64,000 nucleotides of DNA from positions 11,036,001-11,100,000 of the forward strand of contig NC_088786.1 of the NCBI RefSeq assembly GCF_949628265.1. Direction: 5' to 3'. Positions 8,009-62,079 of the stretch are shown here, piece after piece; within the stretch, counting starts at the first letter, position 1, and every line of letters starts with the position of its first letter. The notes beneath the pieces were generated by a model. It searched no databases. It was not told the origin of the DNA and saw only the letters and a program-made list of their open reading frames with translations. Position numbers and translations under genes: made by a program. The stretch is from Cloeon dipterum (lineage: Eukaryota; Arthropoda; Insecta; Ephemeroptera; Baetidae).

Positions 8009-11000
8009 CCTGATGTTCGTCCAATTTGGGTATTCGCCGAATAGCTGTCTATAAATCTGTCTGAATTGAATGTCCTTTGCTCAAAGCCCAACGGGCTCGT
8101 TTTTCTCCATCCCCTTAAAAGGTCAGGTGGAACCGCGCTCTCTACTTCCAACGAATGAATGTTTCTTTCCTTGTTACATGATGGGATTTTCCAGGAAATT
8201 TGAATGCTCTGCCAAAATATTTATGTTCCATTTGATATACGTGCTTTCAATCAAGAGTGTCCTAAAAAACGAACACGTGTGTGGTTTTATTAAATTGGAA
8301 ATCAAACTCAAATGGATAACATGTTGCATTTTTGGAAAACACACAATATGGAAGATTTTGATCCAGGAAATTAACAATTTATTTTTTTTTTTTGATTTAA
8401 TTTGGATGGGCAGTTAAGGTGAAACTTTTTAGTGATAAAAATTACCTCGCACGTTTTCATACTGAACAGCAGCTCTTTCTACCCCTGAGACTTCGGATCA
8501 GCAGTACCTGCAAAACAGGATCAACACTGCGGCAATCTCCAGAGGATTTTGCCTCGTCGCCTATGGAAAAAACAGACTGCGCTCCGATTCCGCTTTAATT
8601 TTTTTCATTTTCGCTTCTAATGTTGAGTTAAAATATATAGAGTATGTAATTTATTTACATATTTGCCTGAAATGGATTGTTTTTGCCTTTTTACTTTTAC
8701 GATGCGGACATTTTTGACTGATAATTAATTTGGAGAATTTAAGACAATTTTTCGGCAGCAAAGATAAATTTTACTCGTAGTGCCTATTTTTTTATATTTG
8801 CCCAATTTTGCCTTAAAAGAGGGGAGTTTTGTGTCGAATTTAAAGGTTTTTTACTGTCTTAGAAGAATTAAAATGTGGCAAATTTGCTAAAAAATTCTTA
8901 TAAATCTAACAACATAAATTTTCATCGACGAAACCCCCAATAGATGAAATAAATTGACTGATGCGATTTAAAAAAAACGTAATCAAAAGATTTTGTAAAT
9001 TTCGCTTAAAAAATAGCAACGACTTGAGTTGTTAGTGCTCAACAATTTTAGAAAAATTGGATGATATCTCTAACAGCCCAGATTAAAGCTTATTGTTTGA
9101 AACGATCGTTTTCTCAAGGCCGATGCGGCCAATCACACATGGAGCCTTTTGATACATCTTACAGCGTCTATTTCAATTAGAGCAAATTGATGTTCACCAC
9201 GTTCTTAAGAGGTACTGTGTCAAAGCATAATATTTTTCCTCTCACCCCAGTATCAAAGCCCTCGCACAAGGTAACGAGCCCCGAGTGTCGTTACTTCAAG
9301 CGGCGATGAACTTGCCTCTTGATTGTTTAACGTGCGACGAGTTTCCAATTAAATTCCCAACACTCATTTGTTTCGCGCGCACGCCGAGTATGAGACTCTC
9401 ACTCCGCGAGGCGAATACATATACAAAGCGATTCGCGCGTCGATCTGGTGATACATCATCGCCGCCGGTTCGTGTTAGCTTCGAACAGCAAACAACGTGG
9501 CTCTGGTTCCCCCAAGGGCCTTTGCAGGAGTTCTCTCTCGAGGAACAAACGCAGCCTCTGTGTACGTGTATAGGCAACCTGCTCGACGTGCCGGCATTGG
9601 TGCTGCGTAATCTCCATTGATGACGGCGCCCGCTCAATCACACACGTTTTTCGCGGGGCTATGCCACGACCCGCACAGCACTTGATGAAATTGTCAAAAT
9701 CAAACGCGCGTATTGCTTCGTGACGTGTCACCTGTCAGCTCTCGGCCGCACGGCACCCAGCCGGCGATTTAAAGGGAATGGATTGCGCGTTGGGACGCAC
9801 GTAACGCCAATTTGCATTGTTTTCCGCCGTCCTGCACAAATGATTGATGCGCCGCATTATACTGAATATTCAAACAGCTCGTTTCAATCGGAAATTTTCG
9901 GTCAATAAAGCGATTTATCCCGGAACAAACTAGCGCTGGGCGGAACGGCGCGCACGCAGGTCTCCCCGCAAAATTGCTCGAGTATTATGGGCGGCAGTAA
10001 AATTCTATTTTACGGCCTCAAGATATTCACTTTTTAACTTTTATCCTCCAGGTTCCCTCGGTGGATATCTGCAGACGAACTTTTGTCGCACGCCGGTAGT
10101 AAAAATGATCATTGATGAGTTGTTTCACTTCAGACTTACAACATGATATAAAATCAATGAAAAATATTTCCTAGAATCTAATAATTATAGTTGTAGTTAT
10201 AATTACTTTGCATATCATTTATTCATGCAATTTGATTCCGCGAAATAGTTTCCATACAGCTTTTGGTTTTTTTTATTTTATTGCTCAGTGCACGTAATAG
10301 CGAAATTTAAACGCGGAGAAAAGTAGGTCGTGGTGTTTTCGCTCAGTAGATATAAATCACTTTTCCGCAGAACAAATTTAAGGGAGTATACAGCACAAGC
10401 GTTGTCAGCGCTAATCGGATATGTCGCTAAGAGTTACGGACTTTGCGCGCTGTCAAGATCCAACACTAAAATGCCGCCTACTCTGTAACAAAATCTGCAA
10501 TAATCCTCTCAGAATTATAATCACACGATTGGCTAGTTTCTTTGGTTCAATTCTCTATGAGTATTGTTCTTTGAAACGAAATATATTTTGATTTTTAGTG
10601 CTTAAAAAATCAATAGTTTTTTTATTGGTCTACTTCGAGGTGGTTGACCCCCCCCCCCCTGATAGCGAACAACTGGCGAAAATGCCATGTCCCGTGTCCA
10701 AATAACATCGTGAACGAATAACATGGGCGCACAGACCTCGTTGGAGGAAGCTCGCCAGTCCAGAAAAGGACGAACTCATTTTGCTGCCCCTGCGCCAGGG
10801 TGTTTTTATAAACGCTAGAGACATTCGTTCCGTGAAATTAATTCACACGTGCTGGATGGAAAGGTGCAAACCAGCGAGTAGTGAGTCGGAAAGCTTTCGC
10901 AATCCTCCAAAATCCGAATGGACTCGTCATTGCAATGCAAAAGGAGTCAAACGTAAGCGCATGAGCCCGCACTCGATCTCCAAACAGTGCTCGTATTCTC

Positions 11001-12148
11001 AAATTGCAACGTGCACGAAAAAAGCAGGCACTCTCAATAGTGCGAGCCGATGGCTTAGTCGAGACAAGTGTTATTTTTGACTTTATGGAATTAAAATTTT
11101 GTTATGATTAATCAAATTGGCTGCAAATCGCTGAAACCCATTTTTTATGTGTTTCAATTGGGTGAAATCATTTTGTTCCAAATATAAGCCAATCATAAAT
11201 GAACAATAGTTCGTAATTTTTCTGCAATTTTTCACTTTTAAATTAGAGCAAGAATTTGCATGGCTATATGTAGTGTAGTTCATTACAAAAATGATACTTC
11301 TGGTTTTTAATTTGTAGTTTTCGCATGGAATGATATGACTGCAAATTATTCCTTCCCTCTTCCTGATTGGCAAAATGATTGATGCGAAATCATTTCTCCG
11401 ATAAATACTTGTGGATGCTCAGCGTCTAGGAGTAAAAAAAGTTGGTCACCCTTTGATCAAATAACCGCAAATTAATGTAGAGTTGCGGACCCCTTCAAGG
11501 GTCCGTGCCATGGCATATATCAGTCAGAAGGAAAAAATATAAATATGTGAAAGTTTTTGCTATCGAGTTCATTAATTACAATTGGCATTCAATCTTAAAT
11601 TGTATCACACAGATCAATGTCCACCTGTGTCTTGGAATTCCATGAGATTTAAACGGATTTGATTTGCTCAATATCCTTAAATTTTTTTGGGTAGAGGAAA
11701 TCAATGCGTTTTTCCATATTTTGCAGGCTAAAAAGATCAACCAAAATGATTAATGATTCTTTTAGACTTATGCAAATTCTGCTTGATTGTCACAGAAAAC
11801 CAAGAGAAGCTGTACCTCTACCTGATCGTGAGCTCAGGAGCGGGGCTGGTGTTGCTGTTGCTGGTGGTGATCGCGCGGCTGTTGGTGCAAAAGCGGCGGG
11901 CGGCGGCCCGCGGCGGCAAGTACAACCCAAACGACTCGCTGCCGAACGAGTTCGCGGAGGAAATCTCGGAGATCGACGCGGACATTAGCATGGCGGCGAC
12001 GACCATCCCGGCGATCCCGCCGCCGCCGCCAGCCCCCGCGCAGGGCGAGGTGGTCAGATACGGGGGCACAGGCGTGCGTCGGCACGACAGCGACACCAAC
12101 CCTCGGTCGCTCAGCAGACCGGGCAACAGCCAGTACTACTACGGATGA
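232..12148 (+). CDS. EVA1C: EVA-1/EVA1C-like SUEL-lectin single-pass receptor (3' part; 5' exons outside window)
   Basis: Exons seen: 232-375, 1616-1855, 7658-7804, 11796-12148; every junction is phase 1 and the frame stays open to TGA at 12146-12148. The first exon encodes the C-terminal part of a galactose-binding lectin (SUEL) domain: CLTSYATETVMQLCHGKRRC, then a CSENSRMYLKVVYTC ending. The second is an acidic, proline-rich linker. The third carries NCTTVIFNKVAPRPNTLGFV, resembling the membrane-proximal region of EVA-1 proteins. The last has one transmembrane helix (LYLYLIVSSGAGLVLLLLVV), a basic stop-transfer RLLVQKRR and a tail of about 95 residues with a polyproline run. C. elegans EVA-1 is a SAX-3/Robo coreceptor for Slit; the same role here is inference. 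Latrophilins also carry SUEL domains, but they have seven helices and a GAIN domain, which do not fit. Extra exons inside the long introns cannot be excluded. Confidence 0.7.
376..1615 (+). other. Intron of the EVA1C-like gene
   Basis: Begins with donor gtaagt and ends at acceptor cccgcag. AT-rich first part, GC-richer end. A TG microsatellite lies 61 nt before the acceptor. No coding signal seen; the 102-codon plus-strand frame at 1195-1503 has no family resemblance. Confidence 0.6.
1521..1555. repeat. (TG)n microsatellite
   Basis: About 17 uninterrupted TG units just upstream of the acceptor at 1615 in the EVA1C-like gene. It sits where a polypyrimidine or UG-rich splicing regulator would act, but a function is only inferred. 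Confidence 0.95.
1856..7657 (+). other. 5.8-kb intron of the EVA1C-like gene
   Basis: Runs from donor gtaatt to acceptor gtgtgtttcag. It contains scattered open frames of up to 122 codons on both strands, none with recognisable domains, consistent splice sites or codon bias. GC-richer islands near 3.6-4.4 kb and 6.3-7.5 kb may be regulatory. I see no gene in it. Confidence 0.5.
7940..8005. repeat. (CT)n microsatellite
   Basis: About 33 perfect CT units in the EVA1C-like gene intron, 135 nt after the donor at 7805. A length-variable locus is likely. Confidence 0.97.
10629..10894 (+). repeat. Structured dispersed repeat, copy C (full length)
   Basis: Most complete plus-oriented copy of a four-member family. 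In order: a weak 5' hairpin, a C-run, the conserved core CTGATAGCGAAC, the hairpin CCTCGTTGGAGG, the hairpin GTCCAGAAAAGGAC, CTGCGCCAGGGTG, a T-run, AAACGCTAG, the hairpin GTGAAATTAATTCAC and a GCTGG/CCAGC pairing. Seventeen consecutive bases around the GTGAA hairpin are identical to copy B. No tRNA-type A/B box was recognised, so the class (SINE or ncRNA-derived) is open. Confidence 0.8.
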
Positions 12149-12915: not shown

Positions 12916-14049
12916 ATTAATTTGTTATCAAATGATGGGAACAATATCAAATATGCAATTTAGTTCAGGATACCTGGAAACTTAACAAAACCTAAAAATT
13001 ATCTGGTTGTATAATGAACAGGGATTTAGATTTTGTATGATTTTACCTCAAACTTGCATAAAAGAGTTTTATATTCCTGCAGATAATTTCAAACAAAGTG
13101 CAACAATGCCAATGACTCGAGTGTTAGGTACTATTATATTTCTTTGACCATATATATCTTTACACATTTAGACGCGTACGGTTCAGCTGTACCGTAATGC
13201 GCACACACTCCCATGTGCTAGAGACTGAAATTGTGAGCGTTAATTAGGGTGAACAGGACGCTATCATATATGCTCTGTGCTCTGGATGTGGCGTGAAAAT
13301 AATTTCATCAGAGCGTCGGAGTGCTGCTCATGGTGGTGGTTTGTTTGTGTGGACGAAAAAAGTGCTGGCGCGCAAGTGGAAAAGCGAATGGAAATATCAC
13401 CCTGTTGCGCGGTGCGCGTGCTATTAAATTGATGTATATGTCTCGTTGTTGTTGTTTGACACGAACGATCACCCGACCCGTGTTTGACGAGCGAGCGAAC
13501 GTGTGTGCGAGTGCGCCTCTCACTCGCTCCCTTGCTGCTGACAAACCCCGTGAGAAAAGATTTTATACACGCATTCAAAATCCCCTGTTTAAAAGCTCTC
13601 TGCCGCTGTTTATATTAAAAGTATTTATTATTAAAAATATGGTTTGTTGTTTCTCTTCTTTTGAATACCTCTTGTTCGCTCGCAGAACATTGAATTTCTC
13701 AAAAAAGAGATACCACTTTGTTAGCACAAAGCAAAGATTTCTTTGTGAGATGTGGATTCAGCAAATTTGAAAGGGAAATTTTTGTCCCCTATATATAAAC
13801 TATAAAGATTCAATTTTATGATTTTGTATGCTGTTTAATAATAATCACTAATTATTAGTAATGATAATTAAATAAAGAGTAAAAAACTAGAAATCAAAAT
13901 TAAAATACTTATTTTGTAGTCATCAACTGCTCAATAACATATCAGAAAACCAGCTGGAAATTGTAAATGGCTAATCAGCCGGTAATTTTGGAATTTTATA
14001 AAGAAGCTACTCTGCCTCTGCTTGCTCTCTTTTTTAAATATCGGTGTGA

Positions 14050-14255
14050 TTTTTACTCCCTGCAGGCAGTTTATAGGCGAAAACTGGTGTCTCAATTATG
14101 GCGCACATTAATTACACGAGCACACAAGCCACCACAATGGGTGGCCAATCCTTTGAAGGACCATCGCTGCCTCCACACCAAGGACTTCACACGAAACACA
14201 AAGCATTCCTCCAGTGAAATCACACGTGATGGATAGATGCAGACCAGCAAGTTTA
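14050..14255 (+). repeat. Structured dispersed repeat, copy D (diverged)
   Basis: Aligns by eye along its length with copies B and C: TATAGGCGAAAACTGG matches the CTGATAGCGAAC core region, AAGGAC and GCTGCC line up, then GCATTCC, GTGAAATCACACGTG and ACCAGC. Where the others have CCTC/GAGG it has CCACC/GGTGG, and where they have GTCC/GGAC it has TCCTTTGAAGGA. The pairing is retained with different bases. Confidence 0.65.
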
Positions 14256-14958
14256 GTAGGCAAGTCAAAGTGCCTCATCCCTCTTAATTTTCAGCGGACT
14301 GACAAAATGAGCAGCCAACACTGACCCCCCCCTCCCTTTGTTGATTTCTCTGTCTTCCTGATACCGTTTCTTCAGGACAACTGCTTGAACCTTGTGAAAA
14401 ATACACTGGAAAATTTAATAACAGAATGTATCTTTGTTCAAAAAATATTATTACGTATGTTAAGTGATTACTACTGTGAAAAGTGGAAAAAACAGCCACT
14501 CAACTCAGTTTCAGGGAAGTATTTCCTCAGGGCCCGCCATAAACCTATCTCAACCTGCCTCCACTTATATACCTCCTCTTGCAGTGACTAAATATACTAT
14601 GAACGGCCATCCTCATATTCTATCCTTTCTTACATTACTGATGGATATTCAAATTTCGGACTATTTCCGTTTTTAAATCCTTTTGGACAGCTTCCTTTCC
14701 AGAAAAATTCTTTTCGTACAACTTGCATCACCCCATTTAATGATAAAAGCATTATCACAGAAACAATTTCTCATTTTACCGTTTAACGAATCCAGCACAT
14801 AATAATAATAAAGTGTGTGATATATTATCAACTAAAAGCTCAAAATATGAAATTCTTTGGCTTCAATATTCATAATCATCAACAAGCATTGAAGCTTTAA
14901 ATGATTACGAGGAAAAATACCTCGATTTATTCAGTGCGTTTTCACCGGTTCAACAGTC

Positions 14959-18700: not shown

Positions 18701-21506
18701 GAGATTGCTCAGCGGCACAGTTTCTTTCGCTGTGCAATGTGTTTTTAATGTGTGACTCTGATACTTTCTTGGTTTCTGTTCATTTCAGATTTGCCCTGAT
18801 GCGTTAAGTCATTGCTTATAAGAATTGTTAACCAATTCTCACTTTTACCGCCGTTCGCCAAGTCATTATTAAAAAATGACTTTGTACAATTGTGATGAAC
18901 TATAATTGTACGTGAGGAAAAACGTTTTAATAAATGTATGAGATTACTGAAGCCAAATCTAGCCTTTCTTTGGCCGCGAACTAATAACAGCGAACAGCAC
19001 ACGCCGCCAGAGACGAGCCAAGCCCTGCGGAGGACCAACGATGCCCCTGAACCAACGTCAGAAAATGCGTCCCGTGAAGACATTCACTCATGTTTAAGAG
19101 GTGCTAAAGCCAGCAAAAAGCGAGTAGGTGTGTTTTTCCACGACTCTCTTATATGAAAGGAATGGTAAAGTTCACAGTTTAAATTCCATCGTGTGGTCAA
19201 TTTAACCTCAACACATTGCTTATTTTGCATTAGTAAAATAATTAATATAATTAGCATATGTATGCAGGAAATTACGAAAAAACTTTTTGACTCCCTCTTT
19301 GTCCTAAAAAAATACATAACTGTTAATATCCGCTTCCTCTTCACATTGTTAATTTTGTATTAAGTCTTTAATAATCATTGTAGGTATTTATATCACTAGA
19401 GTTAACGCTTTGCTATTGTCAACTAGTTTAATTTTGTAATTTTGAGTTGTTATCACAGTCAGAAATTTATGTAGATGCAAAGTTTCTTTAGAAGGAGTAA
19501 GAAGTAGTGGTTACCGTTCAATAATTTTTTGCTTCATGTTCAATGCGAAAGTTTATCAAAGAAGAATGTTAATGAAGATGCACACTCACTGTTAAATCCG
19601 TCATCAGATTCGTCATTATAGGTTTCAGGCGAAGGGCAGATGGTGTTCACATGGTGATTGACTTCAAATGAGTGTAAAACTCGACCATCAAAAGTAGAAA
19701 CCTAATAATACCCATCAAATTTAGAAGTGGATTGGTGTGATTGAATAAGTGTTTTACCTTGCAAGTACCATCGCCGCTCGCGCTGAGCAGGACGCTTTGG
19801 TGTCCTCGGGCCCATGGCCACGATGAATCAAGAAACGTCACATCACGAATCACACTGCTATGGAGCTAGAATTAAAAAGAAAAAAATACCCGTAACAATA
19901 AATTTACCCTGCTGATCTGTTGTGAGAAATGCTACGTTGCTCCCTGTCAGAGCTGGGTCTGACATCGCGATAAAATCAAACTTTGAATCTAATAATTGTT
20001 TAGCGATTTTTTACAATTTTATCCCGCAGTAATTAAATATTGGCAATTTTTTTTAATTTTATAGGTAGAAAATTCATTTATAAGCCAAAGAGAAAACTTT
20101 ATTGAGATAGCAGAAAAAATAGTAATAACATGAAAAGGGAAATATTTTAAATTAAAAAAGGATTCTCAAAATGCTGCTGTGTGGAATTGATGAGACAAAA
20201 TCTCACATGATCTCGTTCTGATAAGCCGCACTTTTATCACCTTAGACTTCATCAGCAGTAAAAAATCACTATTTGCTGCTAGAAAATTTGGATCACTGGT
20301 AGCTGAAACTGACTGACTTAACTCACTTCTAAACATGGTTTCACCTATAACCGTCCAACCAAAACATCGGTATTTTTTATTTTTAAAATTCTCTTTTAGT
20401 TTGAGATGGAAGATTATTGGAAACTTCTGTGTGTTACCTTACCGCTGCAAAACACCGAAAGAAAAGACATAGCATTTTGCAGAGTATTTCAACACTTATA
20501 CGTTTTCCTATGCTTTTTGTGAACGACTTCAGTGCAAAAAGAACAGCGCAGAAACAGACGCTTTCATTCAGTGTGTCGCCACAAATTGAGTTCCCACCTG
20601 GTGCACACATATATGTTCCATAAATTCCATCCCAAGATAAGTACTATGGAAAATGATTTAGCGCCAGCAATATCATCTTTACCATGTAACTTTGTGGACT
20701 CATTTTCACAAAAACCAATAAAAAGGTTATGATTTATAATCGAAATGTAATAAAAACATCTAATAAATTTGAGGATTCAATTATTGTGTTGAGAGTAGGG
20801 TTAAAATGCAAGACTTACATCATACAAAAAGTCGAGGGGCAGTGGCATGCGCAAGTCGAGCAGCGTGAGGCCCTTGCCATTGACGGCGACTGATACAGCC
20901 ATGTTGGGACACACTGGGTCGGTAGCCAGCCCAGTCCTGTCTCGGCCGTTGAAGGCACAGTTGTCGTACGACAGTAGCTGGTCGCCTCTCTCTACATCGA
21001 CGACCGCCACTCGCCGAACAGTGGTTGCAGCCAAAATCTTAAAAATGGAACACTCACGCTTTCAAGGATGCACGTGCATTTACGCAACAGAAACAGTTAC
21101 ATAAATATACTCTTTCATTCATGACTAAAGCACAGATTAACACCAAGAGCGGCCGTAAAAACTGTCTTCTTAAGTATATTTTCTCAAGTCTCTTTTACTA
21201 CTCAAGTTCATTTTTTAAGTGCTCTGACCTTGCTGCCATCAGAGGTGAATCGGACTGCGTTTATGTTTCTGGCCAAGGTCAGGGTGGTGATCTGGTAGGT
21301 GACCAACATCTCCGCCCGCAGAGCCGAATACAAAATTAGCCTTCCATCGTAGGCACCAGAGCAAAATAAATAGCGGTCCTATCCAAATCATATGTTACTT
21401 TGTTATACATCTCTGCTAGGTAAAAAATAACCTTTGGACTGAAAGCCACTCCACGCACGCTGCCTTGGTGGTACTTGAGGAACTTGGGAGTTCCTTCTTG
21501 CTGCAT
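15722..21506 (-). CDS. WD40-repeat protein, 336 aa, eight coding exons
   Basis: Exons in transcription order: 21506-21432, 21378-21229, 21037-20819, 19865-19758, 19701-19590, 16525-16423, 16348-16197, 15813-15722; phases agree and the total is 337 codons including TAA. It begins MQQEGTPKFLKYHQGSVRGV. WD-type blades are visible: SVRGVAFSPKDRYLFCSGAYDG, then NAVRFTSDGSKILAA, VIRDVTFLD...LLSASGDGTC, LLYSVGDDGVLRR and a closing YLVTGSKDRSVGILRLGAP. With no other domain, it is probably a single seven-bladed propeller acting as a scaffold. I cannot assign an orthologue. A 3.06-kb intron (16526-19589) splits it. Donors of exons 1 and 2 are weak (gttatt, gtcaga). It is divergent from the RCC1/propeller gene. 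Confidence 0.85.
16526..19589 (-). other. 3.06-kb intron of the WD40 gene
   Basis: AT-rich intron between coding exons 5 and 6. Open frames of up to 112 codons are present (for example 18745-19083) but show no domain, bias or splice support. Confidence 0.6.
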
Positions 21507-46371: not shown

Positions 46372-49300
46372 CGTGTCGCTTCTTAGGGTGGCAGCCCCTG
46401 TCGTGCACAACCCTGGGTCTTTCGGTCGGTGGGAAGTTAACACTGGAATGCAGGTCGGGACGGCGGCTGCAGCACCAAGGTTCCGCAATGACTAACCGAC
46501 GTGAGCCAACCGACTCAATGGAAACAGCAGGTTCGCCCCCACGACTGCCGTCGACGCTGCCCACCTGAGAGCGGACCCTGAGCGGCATCTGCAGGAGGAT
46601 AGCGAAATTTGTCCGCACCTGACGCAGGTACACAGCCAGCAGCGAGGGGATTTAAAAATCGATAGGCCTGCGAAACAGGCTGTGCGATCATCCGCCGCAG
46701 ATTACGTTGCATCGGCCGCACCCCGAATTCCGGTCAATCTGCTAGCATGACATGACACCACATTTGCCATGTAATTTTGCATGCCTAGCGGGGTTTCGTA
46801 TTAATTTTAGCCAGCTTTCCGCCTGCTCTTCCTTGCAGGTGATTTTTTTCACCGGGATTTTAAAACTATGTTTATTGTTTCCGCTCAAACGCGAAAGAAG
46901 AAGGTTCTCGATAATTGTTAGGTAATATAAACAATTATATATTTAGTTTGGTGTCTCTGATATAGAGGTGATTAAATTATTTTACACAAATAGGAAAGAT
47001 GAAAACTAATGGAAATTTTATGAAGGTGCTAATAACACTAAATGTTTCTGAGCCTAACTTAGTTTTTTATAGATTTGCCTACCACTTAAAATAATATCCT
47101 AAAATTCAACTAGAAGTCAAAACTATTGAGTATGAATGCCTAGCGTTTAAAAAAAGACCCCGGTGCGGGATCAGTAACACGAGAGATGATCTTTTCTAGA
47201 CTGGGCTTCCTCCAATGAGGCCCGGTTTCACTAGTTGTTCGCTATCAGGGGGTCGCCCATCTCAAAAGAGGTGAAAAATTAACAACAACAAAAATTAGTG
47301 GCTCCGTGAACACCAATTAAAATTTACCTTTATTTAAATCAGCCAGCAGAGATGTCTTATATTTAAATTTTATTATAGCACTAGCACACAAGTGGTATTT
47401 GCGAGTCAACCCATTGCGCGACGGAATGGAAAACTTGGATCATTACAGCCAGCTCCCAAATAATATTATATTTCGTTGTGAATTTTCGAGTTGCCGGACA
47501 GGGAAGAGAGACCAAGCATGCGGCTCGCTTCACTGCGGGAACTCACTCGTATATGATATTTTAGTGCGACTTTTAAATAATATACGTTTCCTCTCTTGCA
47601 CACATTCAGCCGACAGTCAAACAACGAGACACAGCAAACAGGGGTATTGTGCTTTTATTTTACCTTATTAATTATACAATACGCTTACATGTCAGCGTAA
47701 TGGAAGCAGGGCGAGGCTGAGCAGGGCGTCTGAATTATTTCCTCCTTGATGAGGTCATTTATATTTTCGGACCAAAAGGCGTGTTTTCGTTATCAGTGTC
47801 CGAAAAAAACTTCCAACTGAAGATTTAGCTTTTGCTTGACCACTAAGTGTATTAATTTGCAATTTTTCCCGCAGTTTTCGTAATTTCAAACAAAATGCTT
47901 GATAATAACAAATTAGTTCAAGAGAGCTACTAGCAAAACAATGCCTTGCTACATAAGCAATCAACTATTAACCCTAATCGACTACGCACTTTTCTATTTG
48001 AAGGAAAAAATAAACACAGTGCAGTACTTGAGCTCTGCAGGCAGATTATACCACCCGCTGGTCTAAAGTCAAAGGTTTTGCTATTGGAGTGTATATTCAT
48101 TCCCCAGCCTAGCTTTGAAAACTTGACGGATGGGAATTTTAATGGTTAAAAAAATTTCTTGATTAGTGTTAATAGTGCGCTCTCCATAAAAGAAGCTAGC
48201 TCCATAATAAGGCGAAAATGCTCTCTACGTGCGCAGTCTCGTTGCTGTTGTGCCGGCGATAAAATACCCACGCAACTTGCATCAATATTAATGTGCAGGA
48301 ATGAATAAATTCTTGCTCGTAAAATGTGTTCAAGAACTGTTGCTTTGTCTTAACGTAAAGAGTCAGCAGTAATATAGCGCGTACCGAGAGTGCAAAGCTC
48401 GATAAAACTGAAACAGTTATGTGTACAAAAGCTGAGAGGACGCGGAAAAGGCTGTAATAAAAGCAACAAATAGGAGCAAATAGCACCGGTAAAATAAAGC
48501 AACAAAAATCAGACAGCGCCTGCTAAGTAAACGATGACAAGCACCCGCGACGCGCACGCGAGGGGAGTTTCGCACACACGGCGTTAGTTGCGGGGGTGTA
48601 CGCTACAGCGCTAAGGGTGGTGGATAATAGTATTGAGCGGTCACATGACCCATTGAGATGTGGAGTCTTGGTATCGATCAGGACGGCAGTAAGAGTGCAG
48701 CAGTCAACTCCACCGCTACCCTTAAACGACGCTCTTCAGGTGAGATAAAGCGTTGAAAGCGATGACTTGCGGGTGTGCTGATACCACCTCGCAGGTCGTC
48801 CGCCACCCTGAGGCTGCTCGAGAAGAGATTGCTCGAGCCGTGCCTCGATGGGACTTTTCGGGACTCGCTGCGGGCGCTCAAAAGGCCGCGCCTTTCGCTT
48901 GGGTTTTTCGCGGCTCTATAGATTCATTGACTGTCTTTCTGTCATTGCATGCTTTCGGCGCACTTCTCGCGTTGCTATCGGAAAACTGGTTCCTGACGCG
49001 CGTGCATCAGGCAAAGTGATGTCGGGAGAGCACGCGGTCAAGAGCTCGCTGATCGTGCTGAGACTCTTTACATCAAGTGAGTGAGAGAGAGTTCAACGAT
49101 CTCTGCGCAGGAGCGTATGCAAAACCCTTTCTTCGATTAGCTTTTCGGCTTGGTTTAAAAAATTTTCGGCCGGCGAGCAGCCACCCGCGGGGGCAGCAAT
49201 TGTGCGAGTTGCGACGAGAGCACACTAGCCAGAGATTTGTAGCAAAGATACGCGCGCGGACGAAAATCAATAAAACAGCAACCTCTCTCACACGCTCTCG

Positions 49301-56200: not shown

Positions 56201-56963
56201 TCAAAGCAATGCCACACGTTATTTTGACAGTTAACATGGATTTTTATTGTAAAATCTCGGAAATTTGTTGTTGATTATTCAAATTAAATTTCACCAGTTG
56301 CGAAAGCCCTTATTGGTGTTCACAGCCGTCAATTTATAGCGCCAGTGGTTATTTTAGATTTTAAGGTAATTTCGCTGCGACGGTTGAAGTATATGGTTCA
56401 AATGGCTTTAAATTGCATGATTCGTGCTCATTTGATGTCCCTCGGTCGGTATCGATTCTTAGAAAAAAATAGTCGATCGACTGAAATTCACAGCCAAATC
56501 ATTGTCTTTCCATTTCCCATCGCAGGCAAGAGGAAAAGGATAATACGTGTTTAAATTTCAAACCAATGACTCAAAACAATTCCTGGAATTTATAATATCT
56601 TCTTTATTTAGAAACTGCTGATATAGCCTCGCACTTATGCAATGCCGCTCGACACGGTACGTAATTCCCCTCGCGCGCTGCACTCGTGCTCTCTCCCGCT
56701 ACGGCCGGTTGGTTCAGTTCGAGGTCGTGCAGAGGGCAGCAACGCAGCAGCATTGTCGGTCGGCATTGATAATTTCCGAGGCACTCTTAACCCGTAACTG
56801 TGTTACTGCGCGTGTCGACCGGCTTCTACGAACTTTTCGGCCGTTGCACGCCCGAGCGGAGCCCGATCGTGCGTCAGGTGAGTCTATTACTGCTCTGTGG
56901 GTGGAAAATCGACTTTCAACGCGCATTTTGTTGCAGAACCTTCGAGAAAAGCCGCCAACAGAG
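53243..56963. other. Synapsin 3' UTR, intergenic DNA and MOF 5' UTR
   Basis: After the synapsin stop, a 42-codon open frame runs to TAG at 53369. AT-rich sequence follows with an AATAAA at 53603-53608 and others further on, so alternative long 3' UTRs are possible. Near 56.64 kb GC content rises at the MOF 5' end, where a 59-nt intron (56878-56936, donor gtgagt, acceptor ttgttgcag) precedes the start codon. Confidence 0.55.
53603..53608 (+). terminator. Candidate proximal poly(A) signal of synapsin
   Basis: AATAAA, immediately followed by an overlapping second AATAAA, about 360 nt after the TAA. Confidence 0.4.
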
Positions 56964-59004
<2,041 letters not shown>

Positions 59005-59135: not shown

Positions 59136-62079
59136 CTACTTTCCAGTAAACTTTAGTGGGTTCGACACCCGAAATATGCTTGACAGCATTGTACAGAGAC
59201 TCTTGAACAGATTCTCCGATATGCCCTATAAAGGAAACTGTTAGTTTGAAGGATAAATCTTTGGTTTTTGTTCTCTACCTTTGGCAAAACGAATTGAATT
59301 GTTTTCAGTTCGGATCCACCCCAACTCGCTGTTTCAATCATGAAGCCTTTGATGCATTTAAAAACGAGCTCTGCTCTTTTGGTGCACCAAACAACTGTCA
59401 TTTCCTGTTGGCAAACTGTTGCTTAAACGGTTCAGGTGAACTAATTGATAGGACGTACCTCTGACATTTCGTGGACTAGAAGAAGCGGAATGGTCAAACT
59501 TGTAATGTCATAAGCACTCGACGTCTTTAAAATATTCCTCAATCCTAGTATCACTGGGTGTCTTGAAGTGATATCTTAAAACAAAATAGAATTAGATTGG
59601 AAATGCTTTGATAACTTGAATGGTAATGAACTTGTGGACACTGGACGGGTAAAAAGATAAAGAGTTTAAGTGATGGATATAATCGATTTTGCTTGGTTTA
59701 TGCACGAATTACAATTTTCATTCATTCTTAAATGATTCCAATATTCAAAACGAACTGAGCTTTAAAAACAAGACGCCAGGAATTTCAAATTAACGTATAA
59801 TTTGAAATATCAAGTCTGCGTAAAAATTTGTTAAATGTGACAAGAAATTCAGGTTAAAACAAGCTATTGAACTGAACAAGTACCTGACATAATAGAATCA
59901 TCGCTCAATATGTGGTAAACAACATGAGCCTCTGCAAGACTTGAATGCTTGGTCACATAGCAGTCACCTGGTTGGAGATTTCGTCTTATTGCACCGCTTT
60001 TGTTCTGAAATTTACTATCCATAAATTATTGTATAAAACCAAGTAACGAAGAAGTTACATCATTATTTTGGAGCCTCCACTCAATAGCTTGTCGTGCCTG
60101 AGAGGTCAGAGTTTCCAGTTGCTGTTCGACAGGCAGAAAATGCAACTCTGTTCCTTTTTCGCAAATATTTTGGAATGCTCCGAAGGGCGCTGAGGTTGAC
60201 GGGGACTGGCAGTCGGTGAAGAGAACCAAACCCTGCAGTTCATTGGAGTAAAGGGATAAGGAAGTGTGAATGCGTTGAGTCTGGCCTCTACAAATGAAAG
60301 ATGAGATGATTAGCCGTTTTAAATGTTCATGTTAGGTCAATGCACTCACTGGCAGTCGCAGAGGGCAAGCATGTCGCTGGCTAGCAGTCGTACATTATGC
60401 ATTTGTTTCATTTGCGAGCCCAAATGAATGGTGAAGCTTTCCTGCATGATGGGCAAAAATTGATTTGATGCAGTCTGCACCTTAGGGATTTCAAGCTCAA
60501 ATTCTGGCCATAGAGCGGATCTGAAATAATTGCGTTTAGTTATCTCTAAATGACGCATGTTCTGACGCGCAACTTGCTGATTTACACTTTTTCAAAAGTG
60601 TGAATTAATTTCACGGGACAAATTTCAATTAAAAGACCCCGGTGCGGGGGCAGTAACATGAGCTAGCTGGTCCTTTTCTGGACTGTGCTTCCTCCAGTGA
60701 GGCCAGTGCTCCCATGTTAATTGTTCGCATTTGTAATGTTACAGGGACGAAGTTTTCACGAGTTTTTCGCTATCAGGGCATAGCTCATCTCAAATGAGAT
60801 GATCCAAAACATTAAAAAAAATCTAGTAATTACAGCTGCCATTATTGGTATTTTCATTTCCATTCCTGTAAACATGTTGTTTTAACTACTTAATTGTTTG
60901 CATGTATTTGGAATTTGAAGTTGCTCTTATTTAAATTAACATCATTCTATTAGGTATAGTTATTATTTTATTTTTCAGAAATGAGGCAATCTCAAAAAAT
61001 ATTGACAAATATTTACCTTTCTAGAATTGAAAAGCATTTTATTGCTATCACTTTTGAAAAATAAATGTGACACTTTGTAATGATGATAACTCTTGAGGTA
61101 AGTTGTTTCCGTATTATATTATTCAATTCAAGAGTAGTAATATTGATACCATATAATATCGATAATAAAAGATACGTACAAATTTTGCTCTGGTTGAGCT
61201 TGCTGGCTGAGACCCACTAGCCAAGCTCTGGCTTCACGCCGCTGAGTTGTTTTTAATGAATCCAATCGGCTCTCCCACTGGACGAGCAACATTTCTTTGT
61301 GTTCCAAATGAGAATTTGCCAAGCTGTTAATTTGCTCTTCGGTCAAAGCTTCCAATGCCTGCTGCATTTCCCTTTCTTGTCTGTTGTAGTAAAAATAATT
61401 ATCAAATGTTAGAGATGAATTTTTTTAGCTTATCTTACTTAAGCGTAAGTTGGTTAATTTCTGCATCGCGGAGGGTGACCATTTGGTTAACTTGCGCAGA
61501 CATGGCTTCAATTCCCTTGAGGACATTATCAAGCATCGGTGAATGTACTAGCTGGTGGTAAGCTTCTGCAAACAGCTCTTCATCGGAGAGTGCAGTTGGG
61601 CTGCAATATTGCGTCACTTCCTGAAGGGAGAAGAAAATGTAAAAAATCATGCTAATTTATAATGTTTGCCAGTTATTACTCCTTTGTAAGCTACTTCCCA
61701 CTGCTTCACCAGGCTATCAATTTGATCTGAATTTTTTTGTTTAATCGCCTTCGCGACCATTTCATCAGCAATCCTGTCTTGTTCAGCTTTTAGTTTCTCC
61801 TTGACAAAAGTTTCAATACTCTCAGTAAGGTCTGCAAATTAAAGCTTGTTTAATAACGTAGCACTAACTTTTATAATAGAATTTTTAACCATCGATAATA
61901 TAATGGGGCAATCGAAGAGTTGCTATAAGACGGGATGCAAGTTCGGGTGCTGAGTCTTTGAAGGGGATTTCCAAACATGTTTTTAATTCATAATTATACT
62001 CTGGAGCTGATGGTGCGGGGAACGTCATGATAAAGTCAGCCTCGATCTTGTGATCTTCTTTGGGGGCGTTTGGTTTCAT
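59136..62079 (-). CDS. FERRY3: FERRY3/C12orf4 homologue, FERRY Rab5-effector complex subunit, 525 aa
   Basis: Exons: 62079-61890, 61831-61680, 61620-61439, 61380-61180, 60520-60350, 60287-60059, 60004-59884, 59574-59459, 59404-59279, 59225-59136; 526 codons with TAG. It matches human C12orf4 (552 aa) along its length: [11 protein letters not shown] near the N-terminus, [69 protein letters not shown], then [20 protein letters not shown], and ISENLFKSL...SSIFRVSNP at the end. Human FERRY links early endosomes to mRNA via Rab5. No membrane segment; a helical region ([20 protein letters not shown]) sits mid-protein. A strong acceptor (ttgttattgcag) just before the ATG implies a 5' UTR intron. The donors of exons 1 and 9 are weak (gttaaa, gtagag). 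The 660-nt intron 60521-61179 holds repeat copy B. Confidence 0.93.
60521..61179 (-). other. FERRY3 intron carrying a dispersed repeat
   Basis: Donor gtacgt, acceptor atttcag. Repeat copy B occupies 60570-60806, ending about 50 nt from the acceptor. The rest is AT-rich. Confidence 0.85.
60570..60806 (-). repeat. Structured dispersed repeat, copy B (full length)
   Basis: On the minus strand: perfect hairpin CATCTCATTTGAGATG, core CCCTGATAGCGAA, hairpin CCTCACTGGAGG, hairpin GTCCAGAAAAGGAC, CCCGCACCGGGGTC, TTTT, hairpin GTGAAATTAATTCAC, hairpin ACACTTTTGAAAAAGTGT, then ATCAGCAAGTTG. It is the copy with the best-preserved pairing. Confidence 0.85.

Follow-up and report, generated by a model that had tools for sequence, protein, structure and literature searches.

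A probable SINE-like retroposon family with a strongly folded RNA head and without visible target-site duplication in the mayfly Cloeon dipterum

A short repeat occurs at several places in a window of 64,000 nucleotides of Cloeon dipterum DNA (contig NC_088786.1, positions 11,036,001 to 11,100,000), and raises the question of whether a folded RNA is preserved in it by selection or a mobile element has been scattered through the genome. Four copies were reported in a preliminary description, with hairpins kept while the stem bases change, and two readings were offered: a SINE descended from some structured non-coding RNA that was not recognised, or a dispersed family of non-coding RNA genes. 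The reading favoured here, with a probability of roughly 0.7, is a SINE-like non-autonomous poly(A) retroposon whose head is strongly folded and which integrates without visible target duplication. The first of the two earlier readings comes near to it, as far as the element is probably copied from RNA, is poly(A)-tailed and has a folded head without an Rfam match.

The repeat family is real: the four places are homologous, and one profile built from genomic copies matches all of them. A full-length copy of the old subfamily is located at 10617..11059 (profile match 10618-11059, E 1.2e-112), likely with the RNA sense on the minus strand and the RNA 5' end at 11059. It starts with a run of seven T (10617..10623), which, judging from the sequence and from the T-run lengths of young copies, is likely the complement of a minus-strand poly(A) tail. 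Three hairpins follow on the same likely sense strand: the central-domain hairpin GTCC/GGAC (10758..10771), which is GCCC/GGGC in the young subfamily; CCCTG/CAGGG (10788..10800), for which the old consensus has CCCCG/CGGGG and the young one CCTC/GAGG; and GCTGG/CCAGC (10851..10875), which has changed little among the subfamilies and has the sense-strand loop GCACC. The head domain, with a strong fold in the subfamily consensus, occupies the RNA 5' end (10895..11059, likely minus strand). The span 10629-10894 given earlier lies within the repeat, but the copy continues to 11059, so that about 60% of the element was covered, the right-hand 165 bp (the head) were missed, and the strand was read opposite to the likely RNA.

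An old-type copy without the head is found at 60560..60809 (E 2.1e-60, consensus positions 6-256), and a partial copy at 47132..47281 (E 2.6e-33, consensus positions 6-197); both are profile matches on the minus strand, with a likely RNA sense on the plus strand. The diverged partial copy at 14027..14266 (plus-strand match, E 1.5e-19, likely RNA sense minus) perhaps belongs to an older subfamily; used as a query, it returned three genomic places including itself, the two others being weak, and no subfamily placement was obtained from them. A fifth, decayed copy, absent from the preliminary description, is present at 18975..19168 (plus-strand match, E 4.6e-10, likely RNA sense minus). The core CTGATAGCGAA, earlier ascribed to all four copies but as degenerate in the second, is exact in three. 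The named stems are present: GTCC/GGAC, GTCT/AGAT in the 47 kb copy, TCCTTTGAAGGA and GCCACC/GGTGGC in the 14 kb copy, and GTGAA/TTCAC. The window also includes, at 56637-58022, the start of a gene for a MYST-type histone acetyltransferase (Tudor-knot, MYST zinc finger, MOZ_SAS; Tip60-like).

The genome search covered 190 Mb in 10 contigs, five of them of 33-43 Mb. The 10.6 kb copy used as a query gave 405 candidates, the best 40 of which were scored; besides the query itself, these comprise 39 copies at 73-80% identity. Alignment of 39 genomic copies with three window copies, flanks included, gave the anatomy of the element, which spans about 424 bp: one end has a T-run and then ATCGGTTCACC, and the opposite end has GCCAACGGCTTGGTT. 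The old consensus found 2,377 first-look candidates, 40 of which were scored. The last 22 bases of the element, at the end opposite the T-run, occur at 875 genomic places within three mismatches, and the young T-run end at 1,325 places within two mismatches, each reversed control pattern giving 0. Together with the fifth window copy, these counts replace the earlier family size of four. The repeats are non-coding, their subfamily consensus sequences are 402-426 bp long, and they are dispersed in many copies, as expected of a SINE (<1 kb). (In the same genome, an Orco exon lies at C2:29672023, and an exon-by-exon scan gave only five odorant-receptor matches.)

At least three subfamilies, named old, C and young, are present genome-wide. 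The 22-base end scan revealed a younger form, with the end GGGCTGGTT, in many identical copies, and the young subfamily was obtained from eight places chosen for this end or for the neighbouring form GGGTTGGTT; subfamily C was derived from one divergent copy. Mean identity to the consensus is 87.5% in the old subfamily (59 copies), 91.2% in C (26) and 96.2% in the young one (37), values that lean young since the copies used were mostly best hits. The young subfamily, whose 37 copies average 96% to their consensus, has been recently active. A published description of the family was not found in titles or abstract starts among the matches listed for SINEs without duplications, unusual heads, insect SINEs and Cloeon, the literature coverage being incomplete. 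Several loci merit separate mention. L134 and L137 contain solitary stretches of 23-33 nt of the family's RNA 5' end in otherwise unrelated DNA. L101, L141 and L142 (C1, 37.4-38.2 Mb) share the DNA adjacent to the element and probably go back to a single local segmental duplication, which in L142 breaks off at the element. L108 is a young copy interrupted by a MITE-like stretch with long inverted repeats.

One end of the element varies in a way expected of a poly(A) tail. A T-run of 6-25 was found in 26 of the 29 young copies reaching the far end, the three others (L101, L102 and L129, with a short or interrupted run) being dropped by the cut at 6; read on the opposite strand, this is the A-rich 3' tail of variable length that SINEs have. 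Truncation is mostly one-sided. Five of ten T-run-anchored copies are truncated on the RNA 5' side at scattered points (L104, L105, L107, L110 and L112), four reach the end, and L111 keeps the end with a small insertion; these ten were selected for lacking a listed opposite end, which counts against this evidence. By hand count, 11 of the 100 listed places with the exact T-run end have a listed opposite end, within at most two mismatches. Among the copies anchored at the far end, the tail module is retained in 27 of 28 (in L129 no further than position 10, and in two as the tail of subfamily C), and the remaining one (L128) is interrupted. One-sided truncation beside an A tail of varying length points to reverse transcription starting from poly(A).

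The minus strand, in the orientation of the 10.6 kb copy, folds more strongly than the plus strand by 33-36 kcal/mol in all three subfamilies, with minimum free energies (minus/plus) of -160.7/-127.3 kcal/mol for old, -172.6/-139.5 for C and -180.6/-144.7 for young. The head has 10-14 G.U pairs in the sense fold versus 2-3 in the antisense one. Runs of at least four T are absent from the young sense strand and number three on the other; in the old subfamily there are two versus three. Taken from the T-run and truncation pattern, the fold energies and the G.U pairs, the RNA sense is likely the minus strand at 10.6, 14 and 18.9 kb and the plus strand at 47 and 60 kb.

The sense RNA would begin at AACCAGCCCGTTGG. 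The head of the young RNA, its first 165 nt, folds at -78.4 kcal/mol, whereas 200 dinucleotide shuffles averaged -43.2 and none of them folded as well (z -9.0); the antisense of the same head gives -51.6 kcal/mol (z -5.3), and the old head -66.5 kcal/mol (z -3.1). In the young subfamily and C, the head domain is closed by an 11-bp stem of CCAGCCCGTTG with CAACGGGCTGG. The start of the head and the central domain can be aligned among old, C and young; C and young share almost the whole head, and old shares only its first ~60 nt with them. The RNA 3' tails (about 50-70 nt) of the three subfamilies are unrelated by eye in the alignments, and read GATAAAAAGAGC, GAGGTT and GAACCGAT before the A run. 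As far as these alignments go, the module mosaic is the pattern of SINEs that change tails.

The same anatomy could be produced by an internally deleted LINE derivative moved by its parent, with the LINE 5' UTR as the head and the 3' UTR as the tail. Poly(A), 5' truncation and the abundance of intact reverse transcriptase frames across the genome agree with this origin, whereas the persistence of the head beside differing tails in three subfamilies does not. The search for a LINE partner met abundant reverse transcriptase frames; the best 150 of 551 candidates were scored, LINE and LTR types not being separated. The tails had no match at E up to 1 in six LINE-type 3' regions, a weak test as only six places were compared and several regions began past the gene end. 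Such a derivative is considered improbable.

Most SINEs derive from tRNA, 5S or 7SL RNA and leave target duplications. For a head of this kind, the Rfam check proposed earlier was carried out on five young loci and gave 0 matches at E up to 2, a threshold that a very diverged head could escape; Rfam over the window gave nothing for the repeat at gathering level. A tRNA-, 5S- or 7SL-derived head was thus not recognised in these loci or in the window. At relaxed thresholds, part of the 10.6 kb copy had two weak matches, both far below the gathering scores, and ARAGORN reported no tRNA. Among internal Pol III boxes, to which the examination was confined, the best A box agreed at 9/12 positions and the B box at 7-9/11, in inconsistent positions. 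A tRNA-like A box in the head (TTGGCTCGCATTGTT..GAGCGC, with the look of a D-arm) was rejected, as it fell outside the best matches and had no consistent B box.

HaSE1 and HaSE2 of Helicoverpa armigera offer a close comparison (PMC3272025): they are non-coding elements of 286-386 bp built of head, central domain and tail modules, with differing tails behind the same head and domain, and HaSE1 has 5'-truncated copies. Their head is tRNA-related and contains A and B boxes, and HaSE1 copies are flanked by duplications of 5-18 bp (PMC3272025); in the present family neither a tRNA head nor clear boxes were seen, and an A tail is found but no duplication. Some SINEs carry folded 7SL, 5S or snRNA heads, and are similar in having a folded RNA head; the difference is that here no Rfam match was obtained at E up to 2.

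Target-site duplications, a usual mark of SINEs, were not found. The flanks of 26 young copies scored 4.13 versus a null of 4.06, with 104 of 300 shuffles as high. Duplications planted in every copy raised the score to 4.75 (3 bp), 6.33 (5 bp) and 10.86 (10 bp), so that the test sees duplications of at least 3 bp outside the T-run if all copies have them, duplications of T only being hidden. An earlier test on 17 old copies, not significant and underpowered, is superseded by that on young copies. A natural empty site is provided by L126 (G000:C1:14810190-14810880), where a young copy lies inside another young copy in opposite orientation: the target, TTAG/TTTAG with the insertion at the slash, has no clear duplication or loss, microhomology with the element ends leaving room for a short one. 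Another copy, L128 (G000:C1:18502380-18503080), has this TTAG/TTT position split by an unrelated stretch which starts with nine T on the sense strand. TTAG/TTT is a possible preferred target site.

It is chiefly in lacking a duplication that the family differs from ordinary SINEs, and the same lack speaks most strongly for the principal rival, a non-autonomous Helentron (HINE, a relative of Drosophila DINE-1); such rolling-circle DNA elements insert between T and T. Absence of duplication at a T-rich insertion site, as found here, is expected of HINEs, and T-rich targets, border Ts, non-coding sequence and high copy number are likewise common to both (PMC4067079). A variable number of border Ts is also reported for Helentrons, with 2 to 5 Ts in Culex (PMC4067079). 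Fragments of Helitron Rep are present in the genome, a 4-bp AGCC/GGCT hairpin stands near the plus-strand 3' end in the consensus (a palindrome of 5-10 bp is expected of a HINE), and in subfamily C the two end regions match in inverted orientation over 10 nt with one mismatch. However, HINE subterminal inverted repeats measure 12-15 bp, one lying close to the 5' terminus and its partner 38-60 bp away from the 3' terminus; old and young have at best 7 nt with one mismatch, and the match in C, which spans nt 26-35 from one end and nt 7-16 from the other, is not in the HINE position. Neither family end occurs in 17 partly overlapping Rep loci of ~3 kb, outside which the ends of the Rep elements may fall. 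T-runs as long as 25, truncation largely at a single end, and folding of the RNA type on one strand, with G.U pairs, also depart from the HINE/DINE-1 pattern (PMC4067079), as do the missing subterminal repeats. A Helentron origin is accordingly judged unlikely, though less so than a LINE derivative. As a separate observation, the Helitron Rep loci L048-L061 (G000, on C10, C7 and C1, four of them on C10) are ~98% identical to each other and probably belong to a recently active Helitron.

The SINE-like retroposon is therefore filed as a variant and not under a named SINE class, because neither a target duplication nor a known RNA head was found.

Whether the hairpins are kept by selection depends on the level at which the copies are compared. 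The earlier argument drew compensation from four diverged copies. Within subfamilies, pairs in which both bases have changed and pairing is kept number 59 versus 49.8 expected among the 59 old copies, 8 versus 9.2 in C and 6 versus 1.4 in young, the last being few. Single copies decay neutrally. The dispersed non-coding RNA gene family is left unsupported by this decay; the strong fold of the consensus head would suit functional structured genes, but copies decaying near chance, some of them truncated or nested, would not, and this reading is highly improbable.

Compensation could also be imitated. In old copies, the C>T/G>A rate is 0.129 at CpG versus 0.081 elsewhere, and such a bias can mimic compensatory change in stems that contain CG, for example CCCCG/CGGGG. 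The CCCTG/CAGGG hairpin of the 10.6 kb copy (10788..10800) departs from the consensus at two stem positions, in both by CpG transitions. An artefact of CpG decay combined with the use of four diverged copies accounts well for single copies, where no clear excess was seen within subfamilies. As an explanation of the whole signal it is doubtful, since the double differences at pairs 113/122, 146/162 and 211/223 lie outside CpG and are common to most members of the subfamilies carrying them.

Between subfamilies, the covariation check suggested earlier has a mixed outcome. In the old-to-young direction, three Watson-Crick pairs of the kept hairpins in the central domain are double-compensated, where the null mean is 0.38 (P 0.007); two of the three share one base and are thus alternatives. 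From young to old there are two such pairs (P 0.073). Neither the four comparisons involving C nor any of the six restricted to the first 59-60 nt of the head reached significance. A set of 32 copies was assembled from 10 of 29 young, 10 of 44 old and 10 of 21 C copies and two more window copies. In this set, 88.0% of the cells are paired in a structure specified for the count, and sliding the partners gives at most 46%; 9 pairs and 36 cells have changed on both sides versus 3.9 and 10.8 in shuffles (0/500 each), the structure having been drawn from the same sequences on which it was counted. Pair 113/122 is UA in 11 copies, UG in 11 and CG in 9, mainly young, C and old, respectively. Pair 146/162 is UA in 10, CG in 9 and unpaired in 11, mainly C, and pair 211/223 is CG in 17, UA in 10 and unpaired in 4. 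The informative positions represent about three events inherited by many copies. RNAalifold on the 32 copies gave only 5 pairs (-4.2 kcal/mol), which counts against a consensus structure. These five pairs join the GCACC loop of the GCTGG/CCAGC hairpin with the GGTGC loop of a CCCC/GGGG hairpin, both little changed, and a kissing contact between the loops is possible. The claim of compensatory change thus fails within subfamilies and gains modest support between them, where it would consist of about three fixed double changes; selection at the RNA level is likely rather than proven.

For the SINE-like retroposon, the following scheme could be proposed. A master copy would be transcribed from the strand opposite to the one read at 10.6 kb. 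Three modules would make up its RNA: a 5' head of ~165 nt, which in young and C is closed into a multi-branch fold; a central domain, about 172-188 nt long and carrying several small hairpins; and a 3' tail that has been exchanged between subfamilies and ends in poly(A). A reverse transcriptase, probably encoded by a LINE, would start at the poly(A) end and copy this RNA into T-rich DNA; by stopping early it would yield copies without the RNA 5' end, and integration would leave no visible target duplication. The copies would then decay neutrally, while the masters would keep the RNA shape, which may be needed for copying. A further, tentative suggestion is that an unrecognised structured RNA founded a superfamily of such elements, characterised by a closed multi-branch head, possible kissing loops, swapping of tails, compensation in the masters and duplication-free integration of poly(A) cDNA.

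Arrays of TTAGG/TTAGGG were not found in the genome-wide scan (1 match versus 4 for the reversed control), and Ephemeroptera lack TTAGG according to PMC8977481. A young and abundant family with neither a known RNA head nor a target duplication, in an insect without TTAGG arrays, is a lead towards an RNA source and a route of integration. Compensation in such families is to be sought between the consensus sequences of subfamilies and not in single copies, and the family illustrates how selection could act on the RNA shape of a genomic parasite even as the individual copies decay without constraint.
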